From contig JAFGDM010000144.1 of the NCBI GenBank assembly GCA_016932115.1, positions 1 through 41,919 of the forward strand: a stretch of 41,919 bases of DNA, read 5' to 3'. The position numbers were made by a program, and so were the translations under genes. Under the pieces are notes generated by a model, which was given only the letters and a program-made list of their open reading frames with translations, was not told the origin of the DNA and ran no database searches. Positions 18,701 through 41,725 of the stretch are shown in pieces. Each line of letters begins with the position of its first letter. The first letter of the stretch is position 1. Source of the stretch: Deltaproteobacteria bacterium (GTDB lineage Bacteria; Desulfobacterota; DSM-4660; Desulfatiglandales; HGW-15).

Positions 18701-20524
18701 CTAATCAATGACAATCTTCATCTGTTTAACATCCACCTCCATGCCTTTTTTCAAGCACGAAGTCCTAATCTCTTTTGCCTTTTCCTCTCCCTTTTCTTTG
18801 AAAGATACAAGGATGGTATTGATACCGAGCTTGAGGATGATTTGCTCCATATCATTCCTGCTCCCCAGGACGGGATAGCCTTGGATATTTCTGCCGTGAA
18901 GTCTAAGATTGTCGTCGATAAAACCGATAGGCTGGAGACCCAGATCACTGTTATTCCCGATCTCTTTCAAAGCAAACTGCCCTCCAAGCCCGGCTCCATA
19001 GATCAAGGTGCGCCTCCCTTTGCGACCCGGAATCCGGATTCCTTCGTCCAGCAAGCGAAAAGAAAGGCGGGAAATCGATACGAAAATCAGCATCAGGCCC
19101 CAGTAGATAACAAAAACGGCGCGGGAGAAGGACTGGAACCTTGAAAGGAACAGGAAGAAAAGCATGGGCATAACCGTACCCAAGGTAATCGCCTTCGCAT
19201 AACCGATGAGGTCTCTCACATCCGTCCTCTCCCAGATTCCCCGATACACCCCCATGAGATAGAAGGAGAAAACCTGGCAGGCGATCAGAATTGGGAGAGA
19301 ACGCAAAAAGAAATCCAGGTTTGCTCCTATCCGCCCTTCAAATCTCAAGAGGTAGGCTGTGTAGTAAGCCACTGAAATAAGAAGGAAGTCCAACAAGACC
19401 TCAAAAAGCCTGCGTCTGTAAGTGATCTCCACCAGAATCGGAGTTATCCCTCCTCCTTTGCCGTTTGAAAAGATCGGCTTTTCCGCGTAAACTTTGACAC
19501 GGGCGAGGTAGACCCAAAAAAAAGCCACAAAAAGCAGGTAAAGAACCGTGATCAAGACGGCAGGCCCGAGTTGCATGTGTTTTAACCCCAGTGCCATGAA
19601 TCCGGAGAGCACTGAAAAGCCGTAAAGCACCAAAACGGCTTTACGCTCTGAGAGTCCTACAGCCACCATGCGATGAGATGAGTGATCCTTCCCGCCCTGT
19701 GAGATAGGACGGCCGAAGAGTTTCCGCATTAGGCTTACAAAGCCCGTGTCCAGGATGGGGATAAAGACAATAAGAATGGGAACAGCGATCACCGAAAGAA
19801 GATGGGTTACGCCACCCCCCATGGTTCTTTCTCCCGCGCTTGTGATCGTTAAGGAAGCCATGATGAACCCGATGAAGAGGCTGCCGGCATCACCCATAAA
19901 AATAGCTGCCGGATTAAAGTTGTAGATGAGAAACCCGAGAAGGGCGCCCAGATAAGTCGCCGTCAGCAGGATGATCGGCCCGTTGATGCCGGCTTCCGGG
20001 TATCGGAGAATCAAGGTGAAACTGCCTGCGATGAAGGCGACGCCGGCAGACAATCCGTCCATGTTGTCAAGAAGATTAAAAGCGTTCGTGATACCAACAA
20101 TCCAAAGAATGGAAAGAAAAAGATTGATCGCTCTGTAAGAGGTCCACTCCAATTTAAATCCAAAAAAAATCAGAATGGAAGCAAGCACTATCTGGCCCGC
20201 CAACTTGTGCTGAGGGTCAATATTGATGAGATCATCCGTCAAACCGAGAGCGAACATGCCTGAAGCACATAGCATGACGGGTAAATAAGGCCGCCCAAAT
20301 TCATGCCAGCCCAGAAAAATGGATCCTATGGACCAGGTCGCAACCATGGATGCGAATATGGCTATTCCACCAAAAAGCGCCGTCTCTTTCTTGTGCCATC
20401 TCGTGTCTTTGGGGATCGCAACCCTTCCCGTGCTTATTGCAAAACTTCGTACGAGAGGGGTAAGCCCCAAACAAAGCAAGAAGCTCCCCAAGAAAAAAAT
20501 TATCGAAGTGTCCTGGTTGCTCAT
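18701..20524 (-). CDS. WecA-like undecaprenyl-phosphate sugar-1-phosphate transferase fused to PglF/FlaA1 N-terminal domain
   Basis: Residues 1-345 are a polytopic WecA/MraY-type enzyme, which starts O-antigen synthesis by moving a HexNAc-1-phosphate to undecaprenyl phosphate. The catalytic motifs are D97-D98 in GLTDDL, NLLDNMDG (150-157), FMGDAGS (209-215) and DHSSHR (280-285). Residues 365-490 form a second membrane block like the N-terminus of PglF/FlaA1/CapD sugar dehydratases (RRRLFEVLLDF, GVYRG), followed by a Rossmann domain with GAGLGG at 510-515 and IGFIDD. The protein stops at 607, before the SDR dehydratase domain that would carry catalysis, so the tail is probably a nucleotide-sensing or scaffolding module. 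It follows a glycosyltransferase by 31 bp in the lptF-lptG unit. Confidence 0.88.
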   Translation of the reverse strand: MSNQDTSIIFFLGSFLLCLGLTPLVRSFAISTGRVAIPKDTRWHKKETALFGGIAIFASMVATWSIGSIFLGWHEFGRPYLPVMLCASGMFALGLTDDLINIDPQHKLAGQIVLASILIFFGFKLEWTSYRAINLFLSILWIVGITNAFNLLDNMDGLSAGVAFIAGSFTLILRYPEAGINGPIILLTATYLGALLGFLIYNFNPAAIFMGDAGSLFIGFIMASLTITSAGERTMGGGVTHLLSVIAVPILIVFIPILDTGFVSLMRKLFGRPISQGGKDHSSHRMVAVGLSERKAVLVLYGFSVLSGFMALGLKHMQLGPAVLITVLYLLFVAFFWVYLARVKVYAEKPIFSNGKGGGITPILVEITYRRRLFEVLLDFLLISVAYYTAYLLRFEGRIGANLDFFLRSLPILIACQVFSFYLMGVYRGIWERTDVRDLIGYAKAITLGTVMPMLFFLFLSRFQSFSRAVFVIYWGLMLIFVSISRLSFRLLDEGIRIPGRKGRRTLIYGAGLGGQFALKEIGNNSDLGLQPIGFIDDNLRLHGRNIQGYPVLGSRNDMEQIILKLGINTILVSFKEKGEEKAKEIRTSCLKKGMEVDVKQMKIVID

Positions 20525-22852: not shown

Positions 22853-23998
22853 CTACGTTTCCTGCACAGGAAAAAACCTTTCGAAGAGATTGAGGGTGCG
22901 TTCTTTGGAAGCCCGCCGAAGCAACCAAATGCACCCTGCCAGCAGGAAAAGGACCGGAAGCCAAGACCCGATTATAGGGGATATAAGCCCTGTTTCACCG
23001 ATGCTTCTGGAACCTGCCAGTAACAAGTAGTAGAGTAAAAAAACAATGAAACTGAAAACGATACCGATAAATCTTCCCCCGGCTCGCAATTGGGCACCCA
23101 AAGGCACGCCGATAATTCCCATGAGAAAAACAGCGCAAGGCACGGAAAAGCGCTCCATAACTTCCGTGACTGCTTCGTAATTCTTGGTCCCTTTCTTTTC
23201 GGCCTTTACGAAGGATTCCATTAGGTCCTGAAACGACATTTCCTTCGGAGCGAGCTGTCTTCCGGATAAGGCGGGCATGATGTCATCCAGCCCGATTGTC
23301 ATATCGTAGGTATCAAAGACAATGGTGCGGACATCCGCCGCTTTTTTACCGGATATAAATATAACGCCCTCTGTGAAACGCAGTGTGATTAGCATAGCTT
23401 CAGGTTTCGAAACAATCCGGCCTTTTTTTGCCACGATCGTATTGGTGGCTGAGGAATCGCGGCGATCCACAAGAAAAACATCTTGAATCGTCCCGTCTTT
23501 TGCAGAGATACTGTTGACATAAAAGGTGATTCCATTAAAGGGTTCGCAAAAGACTCTCTCCTGAATTCCCATATCCGCCTTGGATTGTGCGATCCTGAAC
23601 ACGAGATCTTTGAAGGATCGATGGCCCCATGGAGATGCAAGAAGACTGATAAAAAGCGCAGCCGCAAAGCAAACAGAAGAAACAAAGACAACCGCCGGCA
23701 GCATCTGGTAAAGGCTTATCCCGGATGCCTTCAAAGCCAGAATTTCATTGTCATTTGATAAGCGGTGAAAGGCAATGAACACAGCCATTAAAACAGCGGC
23801 CGGCAGGGCAAAAAGAATCATCCCCGGCAACAGATAGCCGATCATTGCCACAATCTGAGATGGTTGAACACCCTGATTGACCACCCACTCCGCGATGTTG
23901 AGAATCCGCGCCGCCAGCACGATAAAAACGAAAACAACGACGCTTGCCAGAAAGGGCGGCCACATCTCATTGATGATGTACTTGAAAAGAGTCTTCAA
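22853..23998 (-). CDS. lptF: LPS export permease LptF
   Basis: LptF is the partner of LptG in LPS extraction from the inner membrane. The 381-aa protein has the same 3+3 helix layout around a periplasmic jellyroll (about 140-275), the EILALKASGISLYQM coupling helix for LptB, and the C-terminal VPLGAQLRAGGRF loop. Order lptF-lptG matches most Gram-negatives, usually far from lptB, which is absent here. The start codon is TTG and AAGGAG lies 15 nt upstream, longer than usual; no better in-frame start is seen. Confidence 0.92.
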   Translation of the reverse strand: MKTLFKYIINEMWPPFLASVVVFVFIVLAARILNIAEWVVNQGVQPSQIVAMIGYLLPGMILFALPAAVLMAVFIAFHRLSNDNEILALKASGISLYQMLPAVVFVSSVCFAAALFISLLASPWGHRSFKDLVFRIAQSKADMGIQERVFCEPFNGITFYVNSISAKDGTIQDVFLVDRRDSSATNTIVAKKGRIVSKPEAMLITLRFTEGVIFISGKKAADVRTIVFDTYDMTIGLDDIMPALSGRQLAPKEMSFQDLMESFVKAEKKGTKNYEAVTEVMERFSVPCAVFLMGIIGVPLGAQLRAGGRFIGIVFSFIVFLLYYLLLAGSRSIGETGLISPIIGSWLPVLFLLAGCIWLLRRASKERTLNLFERFFPVQET

Positions 23999-26228: not shown

Positions 26229-27494
26229 TTAAGCGAGCGCGCAATCGGGCTGCAAGCGCCCGGAAAATCCAGCCGAAGCCCTCTGGAGCCCCACGACCAA
26301 TGTCAAGAGCAAAACCGTACCTGCATCAAGAATCGTCGTGTTGAACAACCCATTTAAGAATAGAACAAGGGCTGCGCACAGCACAAGGTGGCCGACAAGC
26401 GTATTTTTTTCCTTCCATCCGTTCCTTAACAGCTCCCAGAAAAGCCAGATAAATAAAACAATGCCAATCATTCCGTAGCTCGTCGCCATATACAGGATGT
26501 TATTGTGCGGATGGGCTATAACCGGATCATCCGAATCTCTTGTCTCCTTTAAAGATGCGGAATACCCCCCTGTTCCAACACCGATGAGCGGGTTTTCAAG
26601 GAATAACTGGATTGCACCCTTCCACATGTAAAACCGATCTTGATGCACCGTGTATTCTCTTCCCCAAGCCTTGTCGGGCGCTGCGCTCATGTGGTATTTC
26701 AATTGGCTGACAGTCAATTCAATGCGCTTTTTGACGACAGGTGAAAACGACATACCTCCAACGATCAAGACGCACACAAGCGCGATTTCCCACATGCTCA
26801 CTTTCCTAAAAAGCGTTTTGATCATGAATGGGAAAAGGAGAATAAACGTTAGATACCCTGCCCTGCCTTCCATGATGATCAAATGGAAAAAATAGAGCAT
26901 CATAAGAACAATAAGACCAAATCGCTTTTTCTGCTCCTCCGCTTCTCTGAAATAGAAGGCGCAGATTAGAATTCCCAGGACAAGGTAAACAGTCAGGGTA
27001 TTGTAGCCCCGAGTTAAGCCTGAGAACCATCCTTGTTTGGGGGCAATGACCCCTGCAAACTGCATGATGCCCACACAGGCATTAACAGCCAAACCGAGGA
27101 GGAAAGCCTCGATCAACCACCTAAGCTCTATGTTCTTGAAAGAAAGAGAGGCAAGGGCAAGACAAAAAAGCCAATAGTAGGTCTTTCCGGCATAGTCGAT
27201 ACCGAAACCCCAAGGATCCGGAGTGTAGATTAGCCCAAGCCATGGTAAAATAGCGAATGGGATCACGGGCCACAGCCAGCTTTGTTTGAATAATGGTTTG
27301 ACTCGGAAAACCATGCCCGAAACCAACCAGATGAAAACGCCTAACACCCCAAAAATTATGGGCGGAGAGGTCCCTATAGGCATTGTCAGAAATACCCCGA
27401 CAAAACAACAGAAAACAAGGCCTTCCGAGCTGAGCTTAGCTTTGCTCAGAGCTTCTCGAACGCGGGAGATCATTTTCCGCCCAAACACCTCCAT
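26229..27494 (-). CDS. O-antigen ligase/polymerase family protein (WaaL/Wzy-like)
   Basis: The 421-aa protein is a multi-helix membrane protein (about 11-12 helices) of the O-antigen ligase superfamily. WaaL joins the O-chain to lipid A-core in the periplasm; Wzy polymerises repeat units. Diagnostic are EGRAGYL (around R211), the long periplasmic loop about 255-335, and AHPHNNILYMATSYG at 327-341 with the conserved His and Asn residues. Ligase versus polymerase cannot be decided from sequence. Neighbouring core glycosyltransferases favour ligase; no second candidate is present in the window. Another in-frame ATG, 7 codons later, is possible. Confidence 0.85.
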   Translation of the reverse strand: MEVFGRKMISRVREALSKAKLSSEGLVFCCFVGVFLTMPIGTSPPIIFGVLGVFIWLVSGMVFRVKPLFKQSWLWPVIPFAILPWLGLIYTPDPWGFGIDYAGKTYYWLFCLALASLSFKNIELRWLIEAFLLGLAVNACVGIMQFAGVIAPKQGWFSGLTRGYNTLTVYLVLGILICAFYFREAEEQKKRFGLIVLMMLYFFHLIIMEGRAGYLTFILLFPFMIKTLFRKVSMWEIALVCVLIVGGMSFSPVVKKRIELTVSQLKYHMSAAPDKAWGREYTVHQDRFYMWKGAIQLFLENPLIGVGTGGYSASLKETRDSDDPVIAHPHNNILYMATSYGMIGIVLFIWLFWELLRNGWKEKNTLVGHLVLCAALVLFLNGLFNTTILDAGTVLLLTLVVGLQRASAGFSGRLQPDCALA

Positions 27495-27503
27495 TCCCGC
27501 ATC

Positions 27504-28343
27504 TCATAAGGTTGACGAGGCAATGACTACGCCTTCTTGAGAAAGACGGGAAAAACCCTGGATCGCCTTGTTTCGCTTTTCCTTCACATTCCGCAAAAGC
27601 TCCCCATCCAACCTCTCTTTTTCCCAGTTGCCCGTTACGGAATGGCTCAAATGGTATTGCAAAGCCATGCACCATAGGTTCTTCACATGAATCCCTTTGT
27701 GAAACAGTCTGTAACAGATATCAGAATCCTCCCTGCCCCAACTTCCATCGAATCGTTCGTCAAATCCGTCGACTTCAAGGAAATTGGATCTGTACATCGA
27801 TAGGTTACACCCCCGAAGCGACGTCTCGGATGCTTTTGGTATCGCCAGTAGCTTCCCCAGCAAAGGGAGATGAAAGGCATTCTTTCTGTTTCCCAATCCT
27901 CCCATCCAGATCGTAGGGCACACAAAGAATCCCTTGTTCAAAAGCTCTTTTGTGTAACGAGGGGGCAGAAGGACTCTCTTTCCCTGCAGGAAGAACCCCT
28001 TTCCCGCCATTGACAAATGATCGGCAATAAATTCCGGATGCAATACCACATCATGATCAATGAAAATCAGATACGTCCCACTCGAGTGTCTTATGGCCAG
28101 ATTTTTAATTCTTGACTGCCGAACTCCCCGGTCTTCATGCCACACATGAACCCATTTCAACTGCGAAGGTCGCAATGTATTACTTACAACCTGAGCGGTT
28201 TCAGTCCCCGACCCATCGTCCGCCACAATCAATTCATCCGGAAATCGTGACTGCTCTAGAACGGATTGTAGAGTCATTTTCAGCGCTTGAGGCCAATTAT
28301 AGGTTGTTATTATCAGTGATACATCAATCGACAAAACTGCCAT
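27504..28343 (-). CDS. Glycosyltransferase family 2 with C-terminal galactosyltransferase-type domain
   Basis: The protein (about 279 aa) has a GT-A domain with VSLIITTYNWPQAL near the start, VADDGSG, and FIDHDVVLHPEF as the DxD-type metal site. The C-terminal part has GWREDSD-type residues (GSWGREDSDICYRL), typical of the galactosyltransferase C-terminal motif that binds acceptor and donor. The start is uncertain: ATG at 28343 is chosen, with GGAGGT directly before it; ATG at 28394 and a TTG at 28334 are alternatives. It sits between asnB and the ligase gene. Confidence 0.85.
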   Translation of the reverse strand: MAVLSIDVSLIITTYNWPQALKMTLQSVLEQSRFPDELIVADDGSGTETAQVVSNTLRPSQLKWVHVWHEDRGVRQSRIKNLAIRHSSGTYLIFIDHDVVLHPEFIADHLSMAGKGFFLQGKRVLLPPRYTKELLNKGFFVCPTIWMGGLGNRKNAFHLPLLGKLLAIPKASETSLRGCNLSMYRSNFLEVDGFDERFDGSWGREDSDICYRLFHKGIHVKNLWCMALQYHLSHSVTGNWEKERLDGELLRNVKEKRNKAIQGFSRLSQEGVVIASSTL

Positions 28344-28452
28344 ACCTCCCATGCCCCGCAACATTTGCCGATAGAAATCCCAGCACCTCTGCACATCTCC
28401 GGTTCACCGCCGAACCGGTATCACCAAGGATAAACAATCTTTTTTTACCAAC

Positions 28453-30384
28453 CTAGCCCGACAGCCATTTTTCTTTCCACATTTCCCACATCAGAAGCGA
28501 CCACAACCGATACTGATGGTTTGCCTTTTTTTGCAGGTGCTCTAATATTTTTTTTTCAATGACCTTTTCGTCAAAAAGGCCTTCCCTTTTCAGGCGACTC
28601 GGAGAAAGGTAGTCCGAAAGCAAGGGTTTAAGCTCCCCTCTAAACCACTCATCCAGCGGTAATGCGAATCCCATTTTCGGCCTTTTAAATAAAGAAACAG
28701 GGAGATATTTGGCAAGAAGCCTTTTGAGAATGTATTTCCCCGTTCCGTTCCTGATCTTTAAGGAGTCCGGCATTAGGGATGTATATTCAACTACTCTGTG
28801 ATCTAACAAAGGAACCCGCACCTCAAGACCGACTGCCATGCCGGCACGGTCCACTTTGCTCAGCATTGCATCAGGAAGATACGTTTCCCGATCCACCCTC
28901 ATCAACATTGCGACCGGGGACCAGACATCGCTTTCATCGAATAGAGACTCATATCGGCTTTCGGGAAGATCCTTTCCCATAAGATTGTAGAGCTCTTCCC
29001 TGCCCCACAAACACACCGTCATCCTGTAGATCTCAGAAAGAGCGGCATCATTCAAAATCCTCAGGAGCTTCTGCCATTTGTCTAACAAGTTATTCACCCG
29101 GAACCGTTGAGGAAGGTGTTTTCCACACAGACCATAAAAGGCTTCAATGGAGGAAAAAGACAAGCTATCGAAAGCTCGTGCCAGGATTTTTCTAGTCGAG
29201 CGGGGAATTCTACGAAAGCCCTTGAGCATTCCGGTGGCAGCCCAGTATCTTACATATCCCGCAAACTGTTCATCCCCACCGTCCCCGGAAAGAGCTACAG
29301 CAACCTCAGAGCGGGCAAGCTGACAAACCAGAGAGGTAGGTATTGCCGATGAGTCTGCGAAAGGTTCATCGTACATTTCCGGTAGCCTGGGAACCACAGC
29401 AAGTGCATCTTTTGGAGTAACGAGGATTTCGCAGTGATCAGTGCCGAGATGATTAGCAACTCTTTTAGCCCAGACTGCTTCATTATAAGGTTCTTCTTTA
29501 AACCCGATAGTGAAGGTTCGAACAGGAGATGGGTTGATTCTCTGCATGAGTGCCACCACCAACGAGGAATCAATCCCCCCGCTGAGTAAGGCCCCCAAAG
29601 GCACGTCACCGACGAGGTGGTCGGAAACAGACAAAGTAAGCAAATCTTCCAGTCTTTCAACGACATGGCTTTCCGTCCAATTCTCATGTATATCCGGTTC
29701 ATGGGCGGGCACCTCCCAGTATCGCCTGGTTTTAAGCCCTTCTTGGTCAAAAACCGCGTAATGACCAGGTAAGAGTTTCCACGTATTCCTGAAGATGCTT
29801 CTGGGGCCCGGCACGTATTGATAATGGAGAAAGAGCACAAGCGCATCCGGATCAAGGTCTTTCCGGAAATCGGAAAAAGCCATGAGGGCTTTCAGTTCAG
29901 AGGCGAATGAAAAACCTCTCTCACTGTGGTGATAATATAGCGGCTTAATCCCCAACCTGTCTCTTGCTAACAGTAATTTTTGCTCATTGGAATCCCATAT
30001 CGCAAATGCAAACATGCCGACGAACCGATCGAGGCACTGAATACCCCACTGCATATAAGCCTTGAGGATAACCTCAGTATCAGTTTGCGAATTAAAAACG
30101 TGTCCGTGGGACAAAAGGCTTTGCCGGATTTCCCTGAAATTGTATACCTCACCGTTGTGGACGATTTGCACTTTCCCGTCGTCGCTTGCCATCGGCTGCC
30201 GTCCCGCCCTGGTGAGGTCAATGATCGACAACCTACGATGACCCAAACCCACACCGGCATTATCATCAAAAAACATACCTGCATCGTCGGGTCCCCTGTG
30301 ACTCAGCGTATTCGTAGCCTTAGAAAGGGATCCACAGGCTTCCGCAAAATGCTTTTTGCTTAAGAATCCGACAATACCGCACAT
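28453..30384 (-). CDS. asnB: Glutamine-hydrolysing asparagine synthase family amidotransferase
   Basis: The 643-aa protein has an N-terminal class II glutaminase domain with the nucleophile C2 (MCGIVGF), RLSIIDL at 51-57 and N77-G78-E79, and a C-terminal ATP-pyrophosphatase-type synthetase domain with LSGGIDSS at 267-274 and GDGGDEQFAGY. True AsnB makes asparagine; close relatives in polysaccharide clusters (such as WbpS- and WbtH-type proteins) are thought to amidate uronic acids of O-antigens. It lies among glycosyltransferases and 4 kb from a diacetamido-uronic acid gene, so the sugar-amidation role is favoured, but plain asparagine synthesis is not excluded. Confidence 0.9.
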   Translation of the reverse strand: MCGIVGFLSKKHFAEACGSLSKATNTLSHRGPDDAGMFFDDNAGVGLGHRRLSIIDLTRAGRQPMASDDGKVQIVHNGEVYNFREIRQSLLSHGHVFNSQTDTEVILKAYMQWGIQCLDRFVGMFAFAIWDSNEQKLLLARDRLGIKPLYYHHSERGFSFASELKALMAFSDFRKDLDPDALVLFLHYQYVPGPRSIFRNTWKLLPGHYAVFDQEGLKTRRYWEVPAHEPDIHENWTESHVVERLEDLLTLSVSDHLVGDVPLGALLSGGIDSSLVVALMQRINPSPVRTFTIGFKEEPYNEAVWAKRVANHLGTDHCEILVTPKDALAVVPRLPEMYDEPFADSSAIPTSLVCQLARSEVAVALSGDGGDEQFAGYVRYWAATGMLKGFRRIPRSTRKILARAFDSLSFSSIEAFYGLCGKHLPQRFRVNNLLDKWQKLLRILNDAALSEIYRMTVCLWGREELYNLMGKDLPESRYESLFDESDVWSPVAMLMRVDRETYLPDAMLSKVDRAGMAVGLEVRVPLLDHRVVEYTSLMPDSLKIRNGTGKYILKRLLAKYLPVSLFKRPKMGFALPLDEWFRGELKPLLSDYLSPSRLKREGLFDEKVIEKKILEHLQKKANHQYRLWSLLMWEMWKEKWLSG

Positions 30385-30447
30385 CTTCCGTTCGGCCTCA
30401 TTTTGAAAAGCAAGCAGGTATAGATGTTCACTCCTCCTACAAGCTCT

Positions 30448-31779
30448 TCAGTTGATTCCCAGAACCAAATCAAGAACGGCAGCCATTTCTCCGGTCTGAT
30501 GCTCACGGGTAAACTCTCGCAGCAAATCGGCATTCACGCTTCTTCTCATCGCTTCCGTTCCAATATCACCGCCATGGATGAATCTTTTCAACAACTCGGC
30601 CAGCGCGGCAGGATCTTCTTCCGTAACGCCGAACCCCTTTAACCTCAATGTTTCGGCAATAACAGTATCCTTGGGCCCGATTGAAAGGATCGGCCGCCCT
30701 GCTCCGACATATTCGAAAAACTTTGTGGTATAAACCCCCTTTTCTCTCTTATCCGTCCAATCGAAAATAACCAGAAGATCTGCATTCCTCTGGCAATGTA
30801 GGGCTTGGTTTCTAGGCAAATTACCACCGATGATGACATAGTCTTTAAGATTTTCTAACGGAAACAAAGAGCTTGCCGCTTCAACATTTGGACCGAAAAG
30901 CCATAGCTCAAAATCGCCTTTCTCAATTCGCTTTCCCTCACTCAGCAATTGTATCGCTCTGAAAAGCGGCACCGGGTCCTGTCGTTCAGGATAGATCATG
31001 CCGGTGTAGATTGCCTTTTTCCCTGCTTTGGACCATCCCTGAGGAAATGGGGCCGCTTCGGCATCAAATTCATCCGAATCGAACCCATTGGTCACCACAC
31101 GGACGGATTTCCCGAATTTGTTTTGCAGTTTGACGGCGAGCTGTTGAGAAACGGTGGTAAGAGCATCGGTTTCTCGAATCAGACGCCTTTCCAGCAATGA
31201 TTCAAGCGCATTGAACGGACTGCTTCTTCTTTTGAAGTGGTTTTGACTCCAGAGGTCCCTGTAATCCGCAACCCAGGGGATGTGAAACCGCCTTTTTATA
31301 CGACGGGCTATCCAATGGGATGAGACAGGAAGGGCACAGGAAAGCAAAATATCCGGCTTGATTTCCTTGACGGCGCGCAGTGTTCCTTTTATGGCGCACG
31401 GATACCACAACCATTCCGGCTCCGGAAAGGTTAACAAGTTCTCATAAAAAAAAACGAGCGCCTTCTTCAAACATCCGGCATTTTTATCTCGGAACTCTGC
31501 CTTTGTGCTTCCATATCCTAAAAACTTGCGTCCCACCAGCCTTTTTGCGATCTCTCCGATGTGAGCAGCTTTGGTGCGAATGATGTCTTCGCCGGGCGCG
31601 GTTGAGGGTGTTAAAGCACCATTCCACGCATACCGGTTTATCCGTACCGTCAGGGTCGTCACATGGTAACCGAATCGCGGTAAAAACTTGGAAAAAGCGG
31701 CTGTCCGGTAAGCACCGGGGGCCTGCATCGGAGGATAGTAATAAGTGATGAGCAAGACTCGCTTTGAAGGATCGGCCAT
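30448..31779 (-). CDS. Glycosyltransferase family 4
   Basis: The protein (443 aa from the ATG at 31779) is a GT-B glycosyltransferase of the WcaI/exopolysaccharide type. It starts with RVLLITYYYPPMQAPGAYR, the donor-independent N-domain loop, followed by VADYRDLW and LTTVSQQLA, and the C-domain has IYTGMIYPERQD and FFEYVGAGRPILSIGP. A TTG at 31803 in frame is an alternative start; neither has a clear Shine-Dalgarno. It follows the flippase gene by 133 bp and precedes asnB by 63 bp. Sugar specificity is unknown. Confidence 0.85.
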   Translation of the reverse strand: MADPSKRVLLITYYYPPMQAPGAYRTAAFSKFLPRFGYHVTTLTVRINRYAWNGALTPSTAPGEDIIRTKAAHIGEIAKRLVGRKFLGYGSTKAEFRDKNAGCLKKALVFFYENLLTFPEPEWLWYPCAIKGTLRAVKEIKPDILLSCALPVSSHWIARRIKRRFHIPWVADYRDLWSQNHFKRRSSPFNALESLLERRLIRETDALTTVSQQLAVKLQNKFGKSVRVVTNGFDSDEFDAEAAPFPQGWSKAGKKAIYTGMIYPERQDPVPLFRAIQLLSEGKRIEKGDFELWLFGPNVEAASSLFPLENLKDYVIIGGNLPRNQALHCQRNADLLVIFDWTDKREKGVYTTKFFEYVGAGRPILSIGPKDTVIAETLRLKGFGVTEEDPAALAELLKRFIHGGDIGTEAMRRSVNADLLREFTREHQTGEMAAVLDLVLGIN

Positions 31780-31912
31780 TGTGTTTTGAATTCGGTCAGC
31801 CAAGACGATTGACGGGAAGGATTGCTCTGCCCCGAAAATTTTTCCTCCTTAGACGCCTTCTCAAGTCATTCGAGAACACAGGGAAGAAACACCTTTTTAC
31901 TGAAAAACATAC

Positions 31913-33445
31913 TCAACGCCCACCGCCAGATCTCTCCAGACCGATACTCTTAGCCATGGCGACCGACAGGGCTCTCAGCAAATCCCGGCATTCCGCGTTC
32001 AGCCAAAAAAAGGGGATTGCTGCGGCAGCGTAAGTCAAACCGCAGGCTCCCAGTCTGAGTGCTCCAGGCTCTATAACGCGGGCAAATGCGTATGCGACCA
32101 CGGCAGGTGCCGCGGAAAAAAGAGCGATCCTTGCGAGCATGATCCAAGGCAGAACTCGCTTGAAAGGAACCTCGAGAACTCGTACGCAATGCATAAGCAG
32201 CCAAAGAACCACAAGATAGACTGTAAACACAGTTGCTGCCGCTGCGCCATGCAGCCCGAAAAACGGAATTAAGGCCAGATTCAGAGCAACCTTCAGGGCC
32301 ATAGCCAAAGCGCTTCCGCTCAGCACCAATCGCGAGCGGCCTGCCGCCATCAGTAGCGAGCCGTACTGGGTTGCCCGCAGAGGCAAAAGGAGCAGAGTGA
32401 TTTGGAAAATAGCAACACTCTCCCGATAGCGATCTGAAAAAAGCAGCGGTATCAGGTCTGGCGCGGCTACCAGCAAAAAAGCCGTAACAGGAAAAAAAAT
32501 GACGGCCACCCTTATCGTCCCCGCGTGCCATAAACCAACGACACGTTCAAACTCATGTCTGGAATAGAGACGGACGAACTCCGGTGTCAGCACCGCCATG
32601 ATCGATCCGGAGACAATGCCTGCGAAAGGCAGCTCACGAGCTCCTACCTCATACAAAGCAAATCGGTCGGGAGAAAAGTATCCGGCCACAATCAGCTTGT
32701 CGACCTCTAAAGCAAGGGTTCCAAGAACGGCAGCCAAACCCAGAGGGATACAATATGCGAGCTGCCTCTTGAGTAAAGCCAAGTCCCATGATCCGTGCGT
32801 TCCCCTGTGACCGTAAAAGGCAAGATGCTGAAAGAGCAGGAGCTTGGCCAATGTAGCCGAGGTCAGGATGATGAGTACGGATGCCAGGTCATATCCGAAC
32901 CACACCGGAATAACAACCGCCGCCAGTTGCACCAGGGCTGACAGAAAGGCCAATTCCGCGGAAATCTTCGCCCGATGCGTGGCGATCAAAAACACATCGA
33001 CAGCCAGCAGCGGGAAACTCACCATCGGATACCAGACAAACGCTCGCAGGAGGTCACCGAGTCCTTGTCCCCCTAACAAACCGGCAAGGCTGTCGGCAAA
33101 CAAATAGGTCCCTACACCGGTTATCACACCGCCTAGACCCAAAATGCCTATCGTGTTGATCAATACCGCTTTTTGTCCCCATGTGTCCATCTGAGGAACA
33201 AAGTAAGTCACCCCTCCCGGCAGACCCATCATCATAAAGGGAAGCACGGTATTGTAGACAAGCCATACTTGCTGATAAAGGCCGTATTGCTCCCTCGTCA
33301 GGAGTCGCGCCAACACCATCATGCCGGCCAGAAAACACATCGCGCCGGCTAATCTACCTGCTACAAGGGCTACCGCATCTTGTGAGAGATTCGTTCTGTC
33401 CATGCTTGCGCAGTCCCATACTGCCGGGACATCAACGCCTCTCAT
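31913..33445 (-). CDS. Wzx-like oligosaccharide flippase (MOP superfamily)
   Basis: The 510-aa integral membrane protein has about 12-14 helices and the polysaccharide transporter pattern: VALVAGRLAGAMCFLAG near the N-terminus, LARLLTREQYGLYQQ after the first helix, DKLIVAGYFSPDRFALYEVG in the middle and LNLALIPFFGLHGAAAATV in the second half. Wzx proteins flip undecaprenyl-linked repeat units to the periplasm. The first ATG overlaps the 3' end of the methyltransferase gene by 14 bp, consistent with coupling; an ATG 14 codons later is also possible. It supports a Wzx-dependent pathway, since no wzm/wzt exporter pair is seen here. Confidence 0.88.
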   Translation of the reverse strand: MRGVDVPAVWDCASMDRTNLSQDAVALVAGRLAGAMCFLAGMMVLARLLTREQYGLYQQVWLVYNTVLPFMMMGLPGGVTYFVPQMDTWGQKAVLINTIGILGLGGVITGVGTYLFADSLAGLLGGQGLGDLLRAFVWYPMVSFPLLAVDVFLIATHRAKISAELAFLSALVQLAAVVIPVWFGYDLASVLIILTSATLAKLLLFQHLAFYGHRGTHGSWDLALLKRQLAYCIPLGLAAVLGTLALEVDKLIVAGYFSPDRFALYEVGARELPFAGIVSGSIMAVLTPEFVRLYSRHEFERVVGLWHAGTIRVAVIFFPVTAFLLVAAPDLIPLLFSDRYRESVAIFQITLLLLPLRATQYGSLLMAAGRSRLVLSGSALAMALKVALNLALIPFFGLHGAAAATVFTVYLVVLWLLMHCVRVLEVPFKRVLPWIMLARIALFSAAPAVVAYAFARVIEPGALRLGACGLTYAAAAIPFFWLNAECRDLLRALSVAMAKSIGLERSGGGR

Positions 33446-34256
33446 AGAGCGCTAGTAACCATCGTCGCTTGGCAGTTTTGGGCCAAGCGCGGAATACCCA
33501 ATTTTTCAGAAACGAAGACGTTGGGTTCGAATTTCCGGATTCCGAAGGAACTTCAAGCGTAGATAAATTTATGGATTTGTTGCGTCCATATCCACATTGA
33601 GGGCAGATGCACGCTGCGGGCGGGGCCGGTTCAAGGAGAAATCGACCAAGCTCTCGCAACAACAGGGGAAGCCAATATTGCCTATCCAAAGGCCCGATCA
33701 GTCTGGCGGCGCTTAGGACAAACAGCGGTTCGAAAAGCGCGTAGAGCGTTCCCTCGTGGAACGATCTCATGTGGAGACTGCTATTGAACCAACAAAAGCA
33801 TTTTGGGCACATAACTCCGGACCTTCTAAGGTCCTCGGCGTTCGGAACGGAAATCAGCAAATACCTGCTCGTTACCCTTTGGAGCTCTCCCAGGGTTCGG
33901 CTGAATGTTTCCTGCGGCAGATGCTCAAGAACCTCAAGGCAAATGGCGGCATCAAAAGAGTCATCGGCAAAAGGTAATGACGAGCAATCACCGCAAACCC
34001 GCGGAAGGTCAAATTTTCTCAATGCCCGTTCGCTGAAATCAACCCCTGCCACAAAATCCAATGTTTCCTGCGAGCCCCGACGGACAAGGGCAAGTAGAGC
34101 TTTACCATTGGCGCACCCCACGTCTAGAACCGATCGCACATCCTGCGGAAGAGCCTCCGCAACAACTCTCACGCGTTCGAGGTTTGCCTCATCACTACCG
34201 TAATCATCCCTCCAAAAGACCGGCTGGTTATAGTATTCTCTCAAAAATGGGTTCAT
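33432..34256 (-). CDS. Class I SAM-dependent methyltransferase with Cys pairs
   Basis: The 274-aa protein has a class I SAM-binding core: motif I VLDVGCANGKAL (about 43-54), VAGVDFSE, and DSFDAAICLEVLEHL. After the core it carries MCPKCFCWFN and later ICPQCGYG, two Cys-x2-Cys knuckles that could hold one zinc ion. Such enzymes in O-antigen clusters often methylate a sugar hydroxyl or cap the chain end, but the acceptor is unknown. No clear Shine-Dalgarno precedes the ATG. It overlaps the flippase gene and lies 153 bp after the WbpB/WbpD-like gene. Confidence 0.82.
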   Translation of the reverse strand: MNPFLREYYNQPVFWRDDYGSDEANLERVRVVAEALPQDVRSVLDVGCANGKALLALVRRGSQETLDFVAGVDFSERALRKFDLPRVCGDCSSLPFADDSFDAAICLEVLEHLPQETFSRTLGELQRVTSRYLLISVPNAEDLRRSGVMCPKCFCWFNSSLHMRSFHEGTLYALFEPLFVLSAARLIGPLDRQYWLPLLLRELGRFLLEPAPPAACICPQCGYGRNKSINLSTLEVPSESGNSNPTSSFLKNWVFRAWPKTAKRRWLLALYERR

Positions 34257-34337
34257 CAGGAAAGCTTACGAACTGTATTACGCAGGGGTCCTTGAAGCAA
34301 AAAAGAGTTTTGTAACAATTTAGCTGTTTGAAATGCT

Positions 34338-34352
34338 GAAGCCGGCGGCTTC
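34338..34352. other. GC-rich hairpin between two polysaccharide genes
   Basis: GAAGCC and GGCTTC form a perfect 6-bp stem with a 3-nt loop in the 153-bp gap. There is no T-tract, so its role is open; it may mark an mRNA processing site or weak attenuation. Confidence 0.3.
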
Positions 34353-34409
34353 CAATCAGCTTGGCCTGCCGGGTTTTCCCTGAACCTCGCTGAATGCCGT
34401 TTTTTCTGT

Positions 34410-36029
34410 CTATTTCGCTTGAATTCTTAGAGAGACCGCTTCCAAGCCTGAATCCACGTTTCGATACTCCCTGCCGCAAGAAAGGCAGTCGAGGTTGCCG
34501 GTAAGACGATCCCCACATTCGCACACCCACCCTATCTGACGTGCGGGGTTTCCCACCACCAAAGCATGGTCCGGGACATTTCTGGTAACGACGGCGCCCG
34601 CGCCGACGAAACAATACCGACCAAGGGTGTTCCCGCAGATCACCGTCGCATTAGCGCCTATTGTCGCCCCTCGCTTAACTTGGGTTGGCCTGGCTTGATC
34701 CATTTTCTTGATCTCGGCCCGAGGATTGTTGACATTGGTGAAGACCATTGAAGGACCGCAGAAAACGCCGTCTTCCAAGATCACCCCCTTGTAAACACTT
34801 ACGTTGTTTTGGATTTTGCACTTGTTGCCGATTTTTCCATCAGGACCGATTACCACGTTCTGGCCGATGTTGCAGTGGTTCCCTATAGTTGTATTAGGAA
34901 GTATATGAGAGAAATGCCAGATTTTTGTGCCCTCTCCGATCATCACATTGTCCTCAATGACTGCAGTTGCATGAGCAAAGAACTGTTTAGCCGGAGGCAC
35001 ACGCCTACCAACTTGCGTCACGTCAGACTCTAGATCAACCCGTGGCTTGGGAGCGAGCTCTATTTTGCGGCCGTTTTCATCCAAGGACCGCTGGGAAGCG
35101 TTGAGAACCCTAAGAACCTTTAGACCCTCCCGCCCGCCGGTCGCCGGGGTGGTGCCGTTAACCATGGCGTCGAGGAACTGCCTACATTCCAGCCGAAGGG
35201 GTTCGGCCTCCGGGATTTCCAATCGCTCCGGCTTCACCTTGATGGGTACGGGCAGATTGTCCTGCCACTTGATCTCGTGACCGTAGAGCAGGAGTTTGTC
35301 GGGCCAAGGCAACATATCATCGAAGACTGCCATCTTGCGCTCGCCTACGACCACCAGTTGTTGAACTTTAAAGGGATGGAGCCACGAAACAAAGATGTGC
35401 GCTCTCAGCCCCGAAGGGAAATCAAGGTGAGTAATGGTTACATCGGCAATGCGCTTGTGTAGGTAGTTGCCCCCGGTGGTAAGCACGCTTTCCGGCTCCT
35501 CGCCGGCAAGCGACAGAATCATCGAGATATCATGGGGTGCGAAAGACCAAAGGATATTTTCCTCCCTGCGTATCCTTCCAAGATTCAGGCGGTGCGAATA
35601 GATATAGTTGATCCGACCCAGCTCACCCTTTGAAGCCAATTCCTTCAACCTGACAAAGGCAGGATGATACTGAAGCAGATGCCCGACCATAAGGATGCGT
35701 TTCCGCTCATCGGCAAGGGCGATAAGCTCTTCCCCTTCTTGCTCATCAAGGACAAGGGGTTTTTCTATATAGACATGCTTGCCGGCAAGAAGAGCTTCTC
35801 TGGCAAGGATATAGTGGGTCTCCGCCGGTGTTGCGATCACAAGGCCGGAAATATCATCCCTTGCAAGGACATCGTTGAGGCCGAGACAGGTGTCGACTTC
35901 AGGGTATTGCTTCTTGAAACTTTCAAGAACCACTTTGTTTGTGTCGCAGATAACCTTCAACATTCCAAGCTCATGATAGTTCCTAACAAGGTTTTTCCCC
36001 CAGTAGCCGGAGCCGATTACAGCGATCAT
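34410..36029 (-). CDS. Fused WbpB-type sugar oxidoreductase and WbpD-type N-acetyltransferase
   Basis: Residues 1-325 are a Gfo/Idh/MocA oxidoreductase with IGSGYWGKNL for NAD and the catalytic EKP at 89-91. This half matches WbpB, which oxidises UDP-GlcNAc-uronic acid at C3. Residues about 350-500 are a left-handed beta-helix acetyltransferase made of hexapeptide repeats (VMIGEGTKIWHFSHI, NCNIGQNVVIG-like units), matching WbpD, which N-acetylates the 3-amino sugar. A C-terminal tail has C503, C505, C515 and C518, a likely zinc knuckle. AGGAGG lies about 9 nt before the ATG. Products would lead to UDP-GlcNAc(3NAc)A-type sugars; the aminotransferase (WbpE) and the dehydrogenase (WbpA) are not in this window. 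Confidence 0.88.
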   Translation of the reverse strand: MIAVIGSGYWGKNLVRNYHELGMLKVICDTNKVVLESFKKQYPEVDTCLGLNDVLARDDISGLVIATPAETHYILAREALLAGKHVYIEKPLVLDEQEGEELIALADERKRILMVGHLLQYHPAFVRLKELASKGELGRINYIYSHRLNLGRIRREENILWSFAPHDISMILSLAGEEPESVLTTGGNYLHKRIADVTITHLDFPSGLRAHIFVSWLHPFKVQQLVVVGERKMAVFDDMLPWPDKLLLYGHEIKWQDNLPVPIKVKPERLEIPEAEPLRLECRQFLDAMVNGTTPATGGREGLKVLRVLNASQRSLDENGRKIELAPKPRVDLESDVTQVGRRVPPAKQFFAHATAVIEDNVMIGEGTKIWHFSHILPNTTIGNHCNIGQNVVIGPDGKIGNKCKIQNNVSVYKGVILEDGVFCGPSMVFTNVNNPRAEIKKMDQARPTQVKRGATIGANATVICGNTLGRYCFVGAGAVVTRNVPDHALVVGNPARQIGWVCECGDRLTGNLDCLSCGREYRNVDSGLEAVSLRIQAK

Positions 36030-36199
36030 GTATTCCGGTCCTCCTAAAATGCTTCGGCAGAGACAGATTTGGGCAAAAATATCTATGATTTTGCTCCCGG
36101 TCCTGCCCGCTCGGTTTTTAGACCCCTACGATTTGATCAAAGATCAGTGTCGCGCCCGTCTGCGTCTCGAACGCGAGCAGCAACCGCAGATGCACCTCT

Positions 36200-38103: not shown

Positions 38104-38185
38104 CACAGACGCTTACGCATATGCAAGGGGAAATGCTTATCCCCTCCCCACGGATTTCTTCTTATCCTTTCAATTTTCAATCTTC

Positions 38186-39067
38186 TCAAGGAGAAACCAT
38201 GCCGTTCAGCATCTCTCCCAAGCTCTCTTCCCAAGATCGCCTTTTGATCCTAAAAAGCCCTTCTATCTTTGAACAGTCCAAAGCCGAATAGGCCGGCCTC
38301 GCGGCAAGAGTGGGATATTGCTCTGTGGAAATGGCACGGACTCTTTTGCATTTGAAAACGGCGCGCTTTCGGGCAAGTTCCATAATCTTCTCTGCAAAAG
38401 TATGCCACGTGGCAACTCCTTTTCCACAGTAATGGTAGGTTCCCCAGACCGACGGAAGAACATCGTGGACGTGATTTGCAAACCTAAGAATAAGAGTCGC
38501 GAGATCGGCAGCGTAGGTCGGGCATCCAAATTGATCATCCACTACACGGAGCTCTTCGTTTTCGCGCGCCAGCCTGAGAATGGTTTTCACAAAATTGTTT
38601 CCATGTGTGCTGTAGAGCCACGATGTGCGCAGGATGATATGCTTTTCCAGTCTATCCCGCACCTCACTTTCCCCCGCTGCCTTGCTTCTCCCGTAAACAC
38701 TGAGCGGACAAACAGGATCCGTTTCCCGATAGGGCATCCTATTTTTTCCGTCGAAAACAAAGTCGGTGGAAATGTGGATGAGTGAGACTCCTTTTTTCGA
38801 ACAGCTTGAAGCCAGATGGGCGGGCCCGCTGCAATTCACTTCAAATGCCAGATCCGATTCGGTTTCAGCTTTATCTACTGCCGTATAGGCCGCGGCGTTG
38901 ATCACCAGAGAATAGTCTTCTTTGCCGACCGCTTCTTGCACCGACTTTCTGTCTGTGATGTCGAATTGAGGCATGTCCAGAGAATAACAATTCATTCCTA
39001 CTCTTGTCGCCGACCGCTCAATCTCATAGCCCAATTGCCCATTCTTTCCCAAAAGCAAAATCTTCAA
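38186..39067 (-). CDS. rfbD: dTDP-4-dehydrorhamnose reductase
   Basis: RfbD (RmlD) reduces dTDP-4-keto-L-rhamnose to dTDP-L-rhamnose, the last step of the pathway. The 293-aa SDR protein has LLLGKNGQLG for NAD(P)H binding, TDFVFDG in the middle, and the catalytic Y125-x3-K129 in YGRSK. The start codon is TTG; GGAGGG at the end of rfbC lies 7 nt upstream, which decides it. The gap to rfbC is 3 bp. Confidence 0.95.
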   Translation of the reverse strand: MKILLLGKNGQLGYEIERSATRVGMNCYSLDMPQFDITDRKSVQEAVGKEDYSLVINAAAYTAVDKAETESDLAFEVNCSGPAHLASSCSKKGVSLIHISTDFVFDGKNRMPYRETDPVCPLSVYGRSKAAGESEVRDRLEKHIILRTSWLYSTHGNNFVKTILRLARENEELRVVDDQFGCPTYAADLATLILRFANHVHDVLPSVWGTYHYCGKGVATWHTFAEKIMELARKRAVFKCKRVRAISTEQYPTLAARPAYSALDCSKIEGLFRIKRRSWEESLGEMLNGMVSP

Positions 39068-39070
39068 CCC

Positions 39071-39628
39071 TCAGCCCTCCATGACCGGAAGGCGTTCAGG
39101 AGGAATATTATTTAAGATCTCGTACATCGAGTCTTTCTGCGAAATCAGTGGATTTTGGACCGGCCAGGAAATGCCGATCTGAGGGTCTGCCCAGAGAATG
39201 CCGCCTTCATTTTCAGGGGAATAAAAATCGCTGCACTTATAGTAGACGACAGCCTTTTTGCTGAGGACACAGAAACCGTGCGCAAATCCTTCCGGCACAA
39301 ATAGCTGCCGCTTGTTTTCATCAGACAAGCGGACTCCCGCCCACTCGCCGAAAGTTTGTGACCCCCGTCGAATATCTACAGCCACGTCAAAGATCTCACC
39401 CTTGATAACTTCAATCAGCTTGGCCTGTGAACATGGGTGCTGATAATGCAAACCTCGAAGGGTGTTTTGGACGGAGTATGAGAGGTTGTCCTGTACAAAA
39501 GTGCAATCGATTCCACTTTCTCGATATCTTTTTTGCTGATAGGTTTCCATAAAAAATCCACGCTCGTCTTGAAAAATCTGCGGGATGATAATCAACACGT
39601 CTTTCAGTGAAGTCGGCAACACTTTCAT
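39071..39628 (-). CDS. rfbC: dTDP-4-dehydrorhamnose 3,5-epimerase
   Basis: RfbC (RmlC) is a cupin epimerase that inverts C3 and C5 of dTDP-4-keto-6-deoxyglucose. The 185-aa protein shows DERGFFMETY, FVQDNLSYS, LRGLHYQHP with the catalytic His, and the VVYYKCSDFYSPENEGGI segment. I choose the ATG at 39628 because GGAG lies about 9 nt upstream; an in-frame TTG five codons earlier is weaker. It sits between rfbA and rfbD. Confidence 0.95.
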   Translation of the reverse strand: MKVLPTSLKDVLIIIPQIFQDERGFFMETYQQKRYRESGIDCTFVQDNLSYSVQNTLRGLHYQHPCSQAKLIEVIKGEIFDVAVDIRRGSQTFGEWAGVRLSDENKRQLFVPEGFAHGFCVLSKKAVVYYKCSDFYSPENEGGILWADPQIGISWPVQNPLISQKDSMYEILNNIPPERLPVMEG

Positions 39629-39700
39629 GCTTGATATCTCCAAACGTTTTTAACAACACCCTCCCCTCTCGAGTCCTTCAGAGATCGAGCGGCCTGGGGG

Positions 39701-40597
39701 TCATAATCGGTAATCGCTGTCTCTTATGTCACCATGCTTTAAAATCTCCATGAGATACTGCCCATAGCCGTTCTTCAGCATCGGTCGTGCCAACTCCTGT
39801 ATACGGGTTTCGTCAATATAATTCATGCGATACGCGATCTCCTCAACACAGGCGATTTTTAATCCCTGTCTAGCCTCAATCGTCTCGATGAACTCGCCTG
39901 CTTGTAGAAGACTCTCGTGGGTACCCGTGTCAAGCCAGGCTATTCCTCTTCCCATCAATTGCACTCGAAGTTTCCCCTGGTGCAGATAAGTGCTGTTAAC
40001 ATCCGTGATCTCCAACTCCCCCCTCGCAGAGGGTTTAAGCCCTCCAGCGATATCAAGGACCTGGTTGTCATAGAAATAAAGGCCGGTTACCGCCCAGTTG
40101 GATCGGGGTTTTTGAGGTTTCTCTTCAATCAAGACCGCCAGCCCATTCTCATCAAATGTCACAACCCCGTAGCGTTCAGGGTCTTTTACCCAATAAGCAA
40201 AGACCGTAGAACCCTCAGTCTGTGCCGCGGCTTTGCGAAGATAGCCCGACAAGCCGTGCCCGAAAAATATGTTGTCGCCGAGAATCAGGCAGACGCTATC
40301 TCTTCCGACAAAATTCCTGCCGATGATAAAGGCCTGCGCAAGACCCTCAGGTTTTGGTTGCTCTGCATACTCGAATCGAAGGCCCCACTGCGATCCGTCG
40401 CCTAGAAGCTGCATAAAACGCGGTAAATCTTCGGGAGTTGAAATGACCAGGATCTCACGGATTCCCGCCAGCATGAGTACGGATAGGGGGTAATAGATCA
40501 TCGGCTTATCATAAACCGGTAAAAGTTGTTTGCTGACCACAAGAGTGATGGGGTAGAGTCGAGTTCCAGAGCCTCCCGCAAGTATGATTCCTTTCAT
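39701..40597 (-). CDS. rfbA: Glucose-1-phosphate thymidylyltransferase
   Basis: RfbA (RmlA) makes dTDP-glucose from dTTP and glucose-1-phosphate, the first step to dTDP-rhamnose. The 298-aa protein starts with the nucleotide-binding [14 protein letters not shown] and has [19 protein letters not shown] and [20 protein letters not shown]. Length is normal. GAGG lies about 9 nt before the ATG. The gap to rfbB is 30 bp. Confidence 0.96.
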
Positions 40598-40627
40598 AAA
40601 CGATCCCCTCTTCCTTGATCTTTGGTA

Positions 40628-41725
40628 TCAGGATGTAGCTAGGTCATTTCGATCCCGTGATTCATAATTTAGGTCTATCCACCTTCGATATTCCCCGCTT
40701 TGAACCGAAGCAATCCAATTTGGATGAGCCAAATACCAGTCGACCGTCAGTTCCAAACCCGCCTCAAAGGAATGCTTCGGAGACCAGCCCAGCTCACTTC
40801 TCAATTTCCCCGCATCGATCGCGTATCGGCGATCATGTCCCGGCCTGTCCATGACGAACTGTATGAGTCTTCGGCTGGGTCCCCGACCCTCCCTACGAAG
40901 CCGGGCGTCAAGGAGATCACACAACAAATGAACAACCTGAATATTCTCTCGTTCTGCTTCTCCGCCGATGTTATAACTTTCTCCGGGTTTCCCATCCTCC
41001 AAAACTTTTACAAGAGCGTTACAGTGATCGATCACATAAAGCCAATCGCGGATGTTTTTCCCGTCACCGTATATGGGCAAGGCTTTGGCTTCCAGAATAT
41101 TCAGGATGATCAATGGAATGAGTTTTTCAGGAAATTGATAGGGGCCGTAATTATTCGAACAGTTCGTCACGATTGTAGGCAACCCATAGGTTCGGAAGTA
41201 AGCTTTCACAAAGTGATCAGAGGCAGCCTTGCTTGCCGAATAGGGGCTCGATGGATCGTAAGGCGTCTCTTCTCTAAAAAACCCTTCACTCCCGAGGCTG
41301 CCGTACACCTCATCGGTCGAAACATGGACGAAGCGAAAATCCTTCGGCTTACCCCGCCTTTGCCAATGCCTCAAGCTCGCATCCAGGATGCGGAAGGTCC
41401 CAACGACGTTTGTATCTACAAAGGCTTCAGGGCCAAGAATGGATCTGTCCACATGGGACTCAGCGGCAAAATGGATGATTCCGTCAACCTCATGATCCGC
41501 GAAAAGCTGATCAACGACATTGCCGTACCGGATGTCGCCATGCACAAATGTATGCCGTGAGGCTGATTCTGATGAAAGCTCTTTAAAATTGACAAGGTTT
41601 CCGGAGTATGTAAGCGCATCGAAATTGAGAATGCGCCATGTAGGTCTCGCACTAAGAACGTGGTAGATAAAATTACTACCGATAAAACCACAGCCCCCTG
41701 TCACAAGGATCGTTTTACCCTTCAT
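40628..41725 (-). CDS. rfbB: dTDP-glucose 4,6-dehydratase
   Basis: RfbB (RmlB) converts dTDP-glucose to dTDP-4-keto-6-deoxyglucose, using bound NAD. The 365-aa SDR enzyme has VTGGCGFIGSNF at 8-19, VSTDEVYGSLG at 135-145 (D138, E139 catalytic), and Y162-x3-K166 in YSASK. It is slightly longer than average at the C-terminus. GAGG lies 5-7 nt before the ATG. It is the first gene of rfbBACD. Confidence 0.96.
   Translation of the reverse strand: MKGKTILVTGGCGFIGSNFIYHVLSARPTWRILNFDALTYSGNLVNFKELSSESASRHTFVHGDIRYGNVVDQLFADHEVDGIIHFAAESHVDRSILGPEAFVDTNVVGTFRILDASLRHWQRRGKPKDFRFVHVSTDEVYGSLGSEGFFREETPYDPSSPYSASKAASDHFVKAYFRTYGLPTIVTNCSNNYGPYQFPEKLIPLIILNILEAKALPIYGDGKNIRDWLYVIDHCNALVKVLEDGKPGESYNIGGEAERENIQVVHLLCDLLDARLRREGRGPSRRLIQFVMDRPGHDRRYAIDAGKLRSELGWSPKHSFEAGLELTVDWYLAHPNWIASVQSGEYRRWIDLNYESRDRNDLATS

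Follow-up and report, generated by a model that had tools for sequence, protein, structure and literature searches.

A predicted WbpS/WbqG-type amidotransferase in an O-antigen locus of a Desulfatiglandales bacterium, and its independent occurrence from a neighbouring dehydrogenase-acyltransferase fusion

Introduction

WbqG is reported to be needed for the uronamide of Escherichia coli O121 (PMC7468200), and deletion of PGN_1234, which encodes WbpS, is reported to have abolished the uronamide of Porphyromonas gingivalis in the same account, where P. gingivalis WbpS is placed closest to Pseudomonas aeruginosa WbpS and E. coli WbqG and the latter two are called members of eps_aminotran_1 (PMC7468200). 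Here we describe a WbpS/WbqG-type glutamine-dependent amidotransferase of the AsnB superfamily, 643 amino acids long, encoded at 28453..30384 on the minus strand of a 41,919-nucleotide stretch of DNA from a Desulfatiglandales bacterium (contig JAFGDM010000144.1 of assembly GCA_016932115.1). This stretch, hereafter the window, is the entire contig C174; the draft genome it belongs to (G000) comprises 3.73 Mb in 323 contigs and is 95.2% complete. The initial annotation of the window had combined the amidotransferase with a WbpB/WbpD-like fusion in the same cluster to propose an O-chain containing an amidated 2,3-diacetamido-uronic acid. We estimate a probability of roughly 75% that the window protein, as a member of the WbpS/WbqG (TIGR03108-like) clade, uses glutamine to form a carboxamide for an envelope polysaccharide, an activity predicted from sequence comparisons; singling out 2,3-diacetamido-uronic acid as its acceptor is not supported by the evidence. 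Among the matches listed in the literature on uronamide amidotransferases and on the O-antigen of this group, taken at the level of titles and the starts of abstracts, no report on this gene was found, which is no proof of its absence from print.

Results and discussion

The amidotransferase open reading frame (ORF) begins with ATG and reads from 30384 to 28453, with stops throughout the plus strand at the same coordinates. Its product matches Asn_synthase (1.5e-108) and GATase_7 (1.5e-47) in Pfam, well outside chance, and starts with MCGIVGF, so that the class-II glutaminase cysteine is present; the synthetase motif reads SGDGGDE, a form shared by 48 of the 69 members of the clade described below. 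A GT2 glycosyltransferase gene lies directly downstream (27504..28394) and a GT4 glycosyltransferase gene about 64 bases upstream (30448..31803), both on the minus strand and identified by Pfam, and the initial description of an intact glutaminase/synthetase between glycosyltransferases thus holds. The nearest named matches, at 55-61% identity, come from metagenome-assembled genomes of Desulfobacterales and Deltaproteobacteria, and by these the group probably belongs to Desulfobacterota. In a FastTree phylogeny of 99 proteins (84 at the outset, of which six of at most 520 amino acids and L063_1 were dropped, with 22 added; some end at contig edges), the window protein falls in a 21-member orthologue clade (support 0.996) nested in a 69-member clade that holds E. 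coli O121 WbqG (0.995). E. coli AsnB, the 539-540-amino-acid AsnB proteins of four relatives (L213 and L215-L217) and a paralogue from contig C47 of the same genome all fall outside the 69-member clade; some intermediate nodes are weak (e.g. 0.30 and 0.02), the WbqG-clade node not being among them. The WbqG sequence was taken from a public O121 genome, where the gene carries the label asnB and is flanked by wzy and GT4 genes, and is equated with wbqG by its position in the O121 cluster, the record itself not carrying that name.

Aligned with WbqG, the window protein shows 41.0% identity (617 columns), as against 31.8% with E. coli AsnB (490 columns), and it shares with WbqG the motifs SGD[GA]GDE, EPFADSS, KVDRA.M and RPK.GF, the same order of NCBIfam scores and an O-antigen locus with adjoining glycosyltransferase genes. 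P. aeruginosa O6 WbpS is likened to it by kind, the sequence comparison having been made with WbqG. Its best NCBIfam model, matched over nearly the full length, is TIGR03108, the XrtA/PEP-CTERM amidotransferase (609.8 bits vs 528.5 for WbqG and 244.9 for E. coli AsnB), followed by TIGR01536 (493.6, 459.8 and 510.0 bits, respectively), while E. coli AsnB reaches 1050 bits on NF006949. As the window protein, like WbqG, scores below the TIGR03108 cut-off of 816.9, we do not file it as an XrtA-system enzyme proper, and contig C174, unlike a locus of that system, carries no exosortase; the two exosortases of the genome are on C47 and C62 (C62:3033-3791, 241 bits). The protein resembles E. coli AsnB and human ASNS in domain order, N-terminal cysteine, SGG.DSS loop and synthetase domain, but it lies outside the AsnB branch, is 89 residues longer than E. 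coli AsnB and has aspartate in place of an essential glutamate. In human ASNS this residue, E364, is reported to lie in the pocket of the aspartyl intermediate and to be essential, the E364A and E364Q variants being inactive (PMC6748925). The position is aspartate in all 21 orthologues and in 67 of the 69 clade members, including WbqG, and glutamate in E. coli AsnB, L213 and L215-L217.

The genome has a separate route to asparagine. It encodes an ammonia-dependent AsnA (contig C17, 301-1431, L003; 376 amino acids against a 330-position model, 267 bits) and AsnRS (633 bits), and the amidotransferase is therefore not its sole candidate for asparagine formation, the condition that the initial annotation had named as refuting its reading; GatB, of the tRNA-dependent GatCAB route, is present as well, as it is in 12 of 14 control genomes. 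Asn_synthase matches twice in this genome, to the window protein and to the C47 paralogue. The latter was weighed and set aside: its N-terminus, MSQGIFG, lacks the glutaminase cysteine, and it is located within an exosortase cluster. On C47 (L177; 82-2052 and 2411-11060) the paralogue is accompanied by an XrtW-like exosortase, an XrtA-type polysaccharide deacetylase, EpsB_2 and two stp2-like glycosyltransferases. Taken together, the placement in the WbqG clade and the presence of separate AsnA and AsnRS make it well supported that the window protein is a predicted polysaccharide amidotransferase and not an asparagine synthase.

The second element of the initial annotation is a gene at 34410..36029 (minus strand) in which a Gfo/Idh/MocA dehydrogenase is fused to a WlbB/WbpD-like N-acetyltransferase; Pfam assigns a GFO_IDH_MocA domain followed by a hexapeptide acyltransferase. 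The fusion is real, and its acyltransferase half (LbH) is of the WbpD type, scoring 204 bits on structure 3mqg (labelled an LPS biosynthesis acetyltransferase in the database; we take it to be WlbB) and 121 bits on the next structure. Its dehydrogenase half, however, is WbpB-like at the superfamily level only: the best NCBIfam model is an archaeal UDP-GlcNAc 3-dehydrogenase at 139 bits, below the cut-off of 450, and structure 3q2k (labelled 'oxidoreductase', presumably WlbA) scores 43 bits vs 82 for 3c1a. A WbpE/QdtB-like DegT aminotransferase is encoded on contig C48, outside the window (260 bits on QdtB structure 3frk, 238 on WbpE structure 3nyu), and clusters with the aminotransferases found beside fusions in L159, L161 and L168, though it is no more than 37-39% identical to two of them. 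The fusion together with this aminotransferase could yield a 2,3-diacetamido sugar, either acidic or neutral, and the fusion by itself could equally well yield a neutral one.

We then compared the occurrence of the amidotransferase and the fusion across 99 genomes, the source genome and 98 relatives. Orthologues were counted at 49% identity or more, pieces included (partial matches in G041, G043, G064, G071, G074, G078 and G038); G053 was left out, since its 49% match covers residues 1-385 only, in a full-length frame, and as it has no fusion match at that threshold its inclusion would have added no link. For the fusion, 37 of 39 matched genomes were kept, G036 (34%) and G089 (44%) being dropped. 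The presence/absence sets for Fisher tests were compiled by hand, and the tests, several in number and without correction, treat the genomes as independent although they are related. This revealed orthologues in 24 genomes and the fusion in 37, with both in 9, the amidotransferase only in 15, the fusion only in 28 and neither in 47. The fusion is thus about as frequent in genomes with an orthologue (38%) as in those without (37%; odds ratio 1.01, p = 1), and co-inheritance of the two genes was rejected; among the 58 genomes at least 90% complete the figures are 6/13 with an orthologue vs 18/45 without (p = 0.76).

The same independence is seen in the arrangement of the genes. We read 24 orthologue loci (the window, 20 loci of relatives, and L024, L025 and L056), which cover 21 of the 24 orthologue genomes (all except G064, G071 and G074) and extend at most about 10 kb per side, often ended by contig edges, many being on short contigs, as well as 20 fusion loci from 20 of the 36 relatives with a fusion. 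Only the window holds both genes in one locus (1/24), and in G038, whose whole genome is one contig, they are about 245 kb apart. A DegT aminotransferase is present in 7 of the 20 fusion loci, and two (L162 and L174) have another, non-orthologous AsnB-like gene within a few kb, whose best model is TIGR03108 and which falls outside the WbqG clade.

Other neighbours of the amidotransferase recur. A WecA-type fusion is found in 9 of the 24 orthologue loci and ORFs of the LptF/LptG clusters in 6, the window included in both counts, while 9 loci have a GT4 gene of cluster c5 or c13 as the next gene upstream and L153 has one of a third cluster, c3; in 9 further loci the next upstream ORF is missing or on the opposite strand. 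Clusters c5 and c13 are distinct from that of the GT4 at 30448 in the window, and their representatives, one each, have TIGR03088 (XrtA-system glycosyltransferase) as best model, below its cut-off. This c5/c13 arrangement of the orthologue loci and the best-scoring model of the window protein are the features in common with the XrtA/PEP-CTERM amidotransferases. Given the recurrence of the WecA-type fusion, LptF/LptG and GT4 genes, the amidotransferase looks like a lipopolysaccharide (LPS)-locus gene in its own right. An extended short-chain dehydrogenase/reductase gene (c4), typed to the superfamily level, adjoins it in 4 of the 24 loci; the neighbour clusters c9 (FabD-like) and c12 (MmdA-like) look unrelated.

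In the window itself the context is that of an O-antigen/polysaccharide locus, with glycosyltransferase, Wzx, Wzy_C, rml, LptF/LptG and WecA-type genes. Beyond the downstream GT2 gene, a Wzy_C O-antigen ligase/polymerase-type membrane protein is encoded at 26229..27494, and beyond the upstream GT4 gene are a Wzx-type flippase (Polysacc_synt_3; 31913..33445), a methyltransferase (Methyltransf_11; 33432..34256), all three assigned by Pfam, the fusion, two GT2 glycosyltransferase genes (36200 and 37126), and dTDP-L-rhamnose genes at 38186..41725, namely rmlD (38186), rmlC (39071), rmlA (39701) and an rmlB-like gene (40628) assigned by Pfam and a match to E. coli rffG. On the other side lie the LPS export permease genes lptG (21773-22849) and lptF (22853-23998), a GT4 glycosyltransferase gene near them (20556), and a gene at 18701..20524 in which a WecA-type initiating transferase is joined to the N-terminal half (CoA_binding_3) of an EPS_sugtrans protein. 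The genes from 26229 to 41725, the lptG/lptF pair and the WecA-type fusion gene are on the minus strand.

Most likely, the window enzyme would convert a sugar acid of the LPS or O-chain to its amide. By analogy with the AsnB superfamily, the N-terminal cysteine would hydrolyse glutamine and the ammonia would pass to the synthetase site, where ATP would adenylate the carboxylate of an acidic sugar, namely a uronic acid carried by a nucleotide or a lipid; displacement of AMP by ammonia would then give the uronamide and remove one negative charge from the LPS or O-chain. Several observations weigh against this reading, and some of them would fit an asparagine synthetase located in an LPS locus by chance. 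The window protein clears the TIGR01536 'asparagine synthase' cut-off (493.6 vs 267.1), though WbqG clears it too, so that this model cannot separate the two activities. The AsnA of the genome falls slightly short of the TIGR00669 cut-off (288.5 vs 292.8 bits). AsnA matches occur in 32 of the 99 genomes, the source genome included (10/24 with an orthologue vs 22/75 without), and of the 24 orthologue genomes 14 gave no AsnA match; in G023, G020 and G043, which are among these, the orthologue is the sole Asn_synthase match (E ≤ 1e-20) and may have an asparagine role. Of the 30 proteins outside the clade, 8 likewise have aspartate at the position of human E364 (13 have glutamate), so that this residue is compatible with another acceptor but, alone, neither diagnostic nor proof. 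Among solved structures the best sequence match is to 7ylz, a 'hydroxyamidotransferase' (251 bits, vs 162 for 1ct9, E. coli AsnB), so that the superfamily is known to include enzymes with other acceptors. We nevertheless regard an asparagine synthetase as improbable here, as the protein groups with WbqG rather than E. coli AsnB, has the E364 position changed to aspartate, stands in an LPS context in a genome with AsnA and AsnRS, and has orthologues in just 24 of 99 genomes, its own included. Amidation of meso-diaminopimelic acid in peptidoglycan, as by Listeria and Bacillus AsnB or Corynebacterium LtsA, would be a very remote prospect: the activity is reported for Gram-positive AsnB homologues of the same superfamily (PMC8554201), but the gene context in the window and the orthologue loci is one of LPS and not murein, and the protein shares a clade with WbqG in a tree that includes no AsnB amidating meso-diaminopimelic acid.

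Also to be set against a uronamide synthase is the scarcity of nucleotide-sugar 6-dehydrogenases near the gene and in its genome. Neither the window nor any of the other 23 orthologue loci showed one, whereas the O121 cluster has, with wbqG, tviB (UDP-GlcNAc 6-dehydrogenase) and an epimerase-family gene. The sole nucleotide-sugar dehydrogenase of the source genome (over cut-off or at E ≤ 1e-30) is a divergent 553-amino-acid protein (C297, 312-1973, L019), and G041, which has an orthologue, yielded no dehydrogenase at E ≤ 1e-30 with 16 of its 46 first-look candidates scored. The C297 protein scores 49.8 bits on PF03721 and 188.7 on TIGR03026 (cut-off 189.8; O121 TviB 393), is 24-26% identical to WecC, TviB, Ugd and the G044 enzyme mentioned below, and carries GGYCLPKD, whose cysteine is presumably catalytic. 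Proteins scoring 190-207 bits, mostly open frames of about 510-630 amino acids, turn up in at least 57 of the 98 relatives, as counted by eye and by likeness of score alone; they occur beside or in place of the canonical type. Canonical dehydrogenases, defined as scoring at least 260 bits with usually just 16 first-look candidates scored per genome, are found in 75 of the 99 genomes, the source genome not among them, and are absent from 8 of the 24 orthologue genomes (G000, G026, G038, G039, G041, G074, G079 and G083). These eight are drafts, four of them at least 90% complete, and as a draft genome is incomplete a missing canonical dehydrogenase is weak evidence. No positive association was seen between orthologue and canonical dehydrogenase (odds ratio 0.54, p = 0.28), and the association with dehydrogenases of at least 430 bits is negative (3/24 vs 27/75, odds ratio 0.25, p = 0.04). 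The fusion is independent of both (odds ratios 0.99 and 1.17); a 6-dehydrogenase is in none of the 20 fusion loci, and in G044, whose locus is outside the 20, one lies about 1 kb from the fusion.

These results bear on the acceptor. The uronamide idea of the initial annotation remains plausible, whereas its diacetamido acceptor fares poorly: the odds ratio is 1.01, one locus in 24 is shared, and no 6-dehydrogenase was seen in the loci. Amidation at C-6 of a 2,3-diacetamido-2,3-dideoxy-uronic acid from a Wbp pathway that includes the window fusion is hence, in our estimation, unlikely. It is favoured by the presence of both genes in the window, the WlbB/WbpD-like acyltransferase half, the C48 aminotransferase that clusters with those beside fusions, the C297 dehydrogenase with its GGYCLPKD motif, the AsnB-like genes of L162 and L174 (though outside the WbqG clade) and the precedent of P. 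gingivalis, where WbpS is reported to act on such a Wbp product, a di-N-acetylated uronic acid (PMC7468200). That system, likened to ours by description, differs in that wbpA/B/D/E and wbpS are tied genetically to one sugar there, while here the counterparts lie apart or have diverged and are not inherited together. The two genes are 245 kb apart in G038; no dehydrogenase in the source genome reaches 260 bits, and the dehydrogenase half of the fusion scores best, though below cut-off, on a UDP-GlcNAc 3-dehydrogenase model, with little likeness to 3q2k. A tentative extension of the preferred reading, in which the window protein acts on a sugar acid of the envelope polysaccharide, is that the orthologue clade comprises LPS-locus amidotransferases for an acid that does not come from canonical UDP-sugar 6-dehydrogenases, as the eight orthologue genomes without an enzyme of at least 260 bits, and G041 among them, might suggest. 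We hold this to be doubtful, if slightly less so than the diacetamido acceptor; the acid would come from the divergent dehydrogenase type of about 550 amino acids or would be a non-uronic acid of the LPS core or O-chain.

Conclusions

The window protein is an ordinary, intact member of the known WbpS/WbqG kind and in that respect adds little that is new. For annotation, the 'asparagine synthase' label is corrected to polysaccharide amidotransferase, and the test of co-inheritance shows that proximity within one O-antigen cluster can point to an unsupported substrate. If the acid proves to be non-canonical, its amide would be one so far undescribed in the LPS of this order, and if that acid is made by the divergent dehydrogenase, this would open a way, at the level of the sugars, into the LPS of a group that is poorly cultivated.

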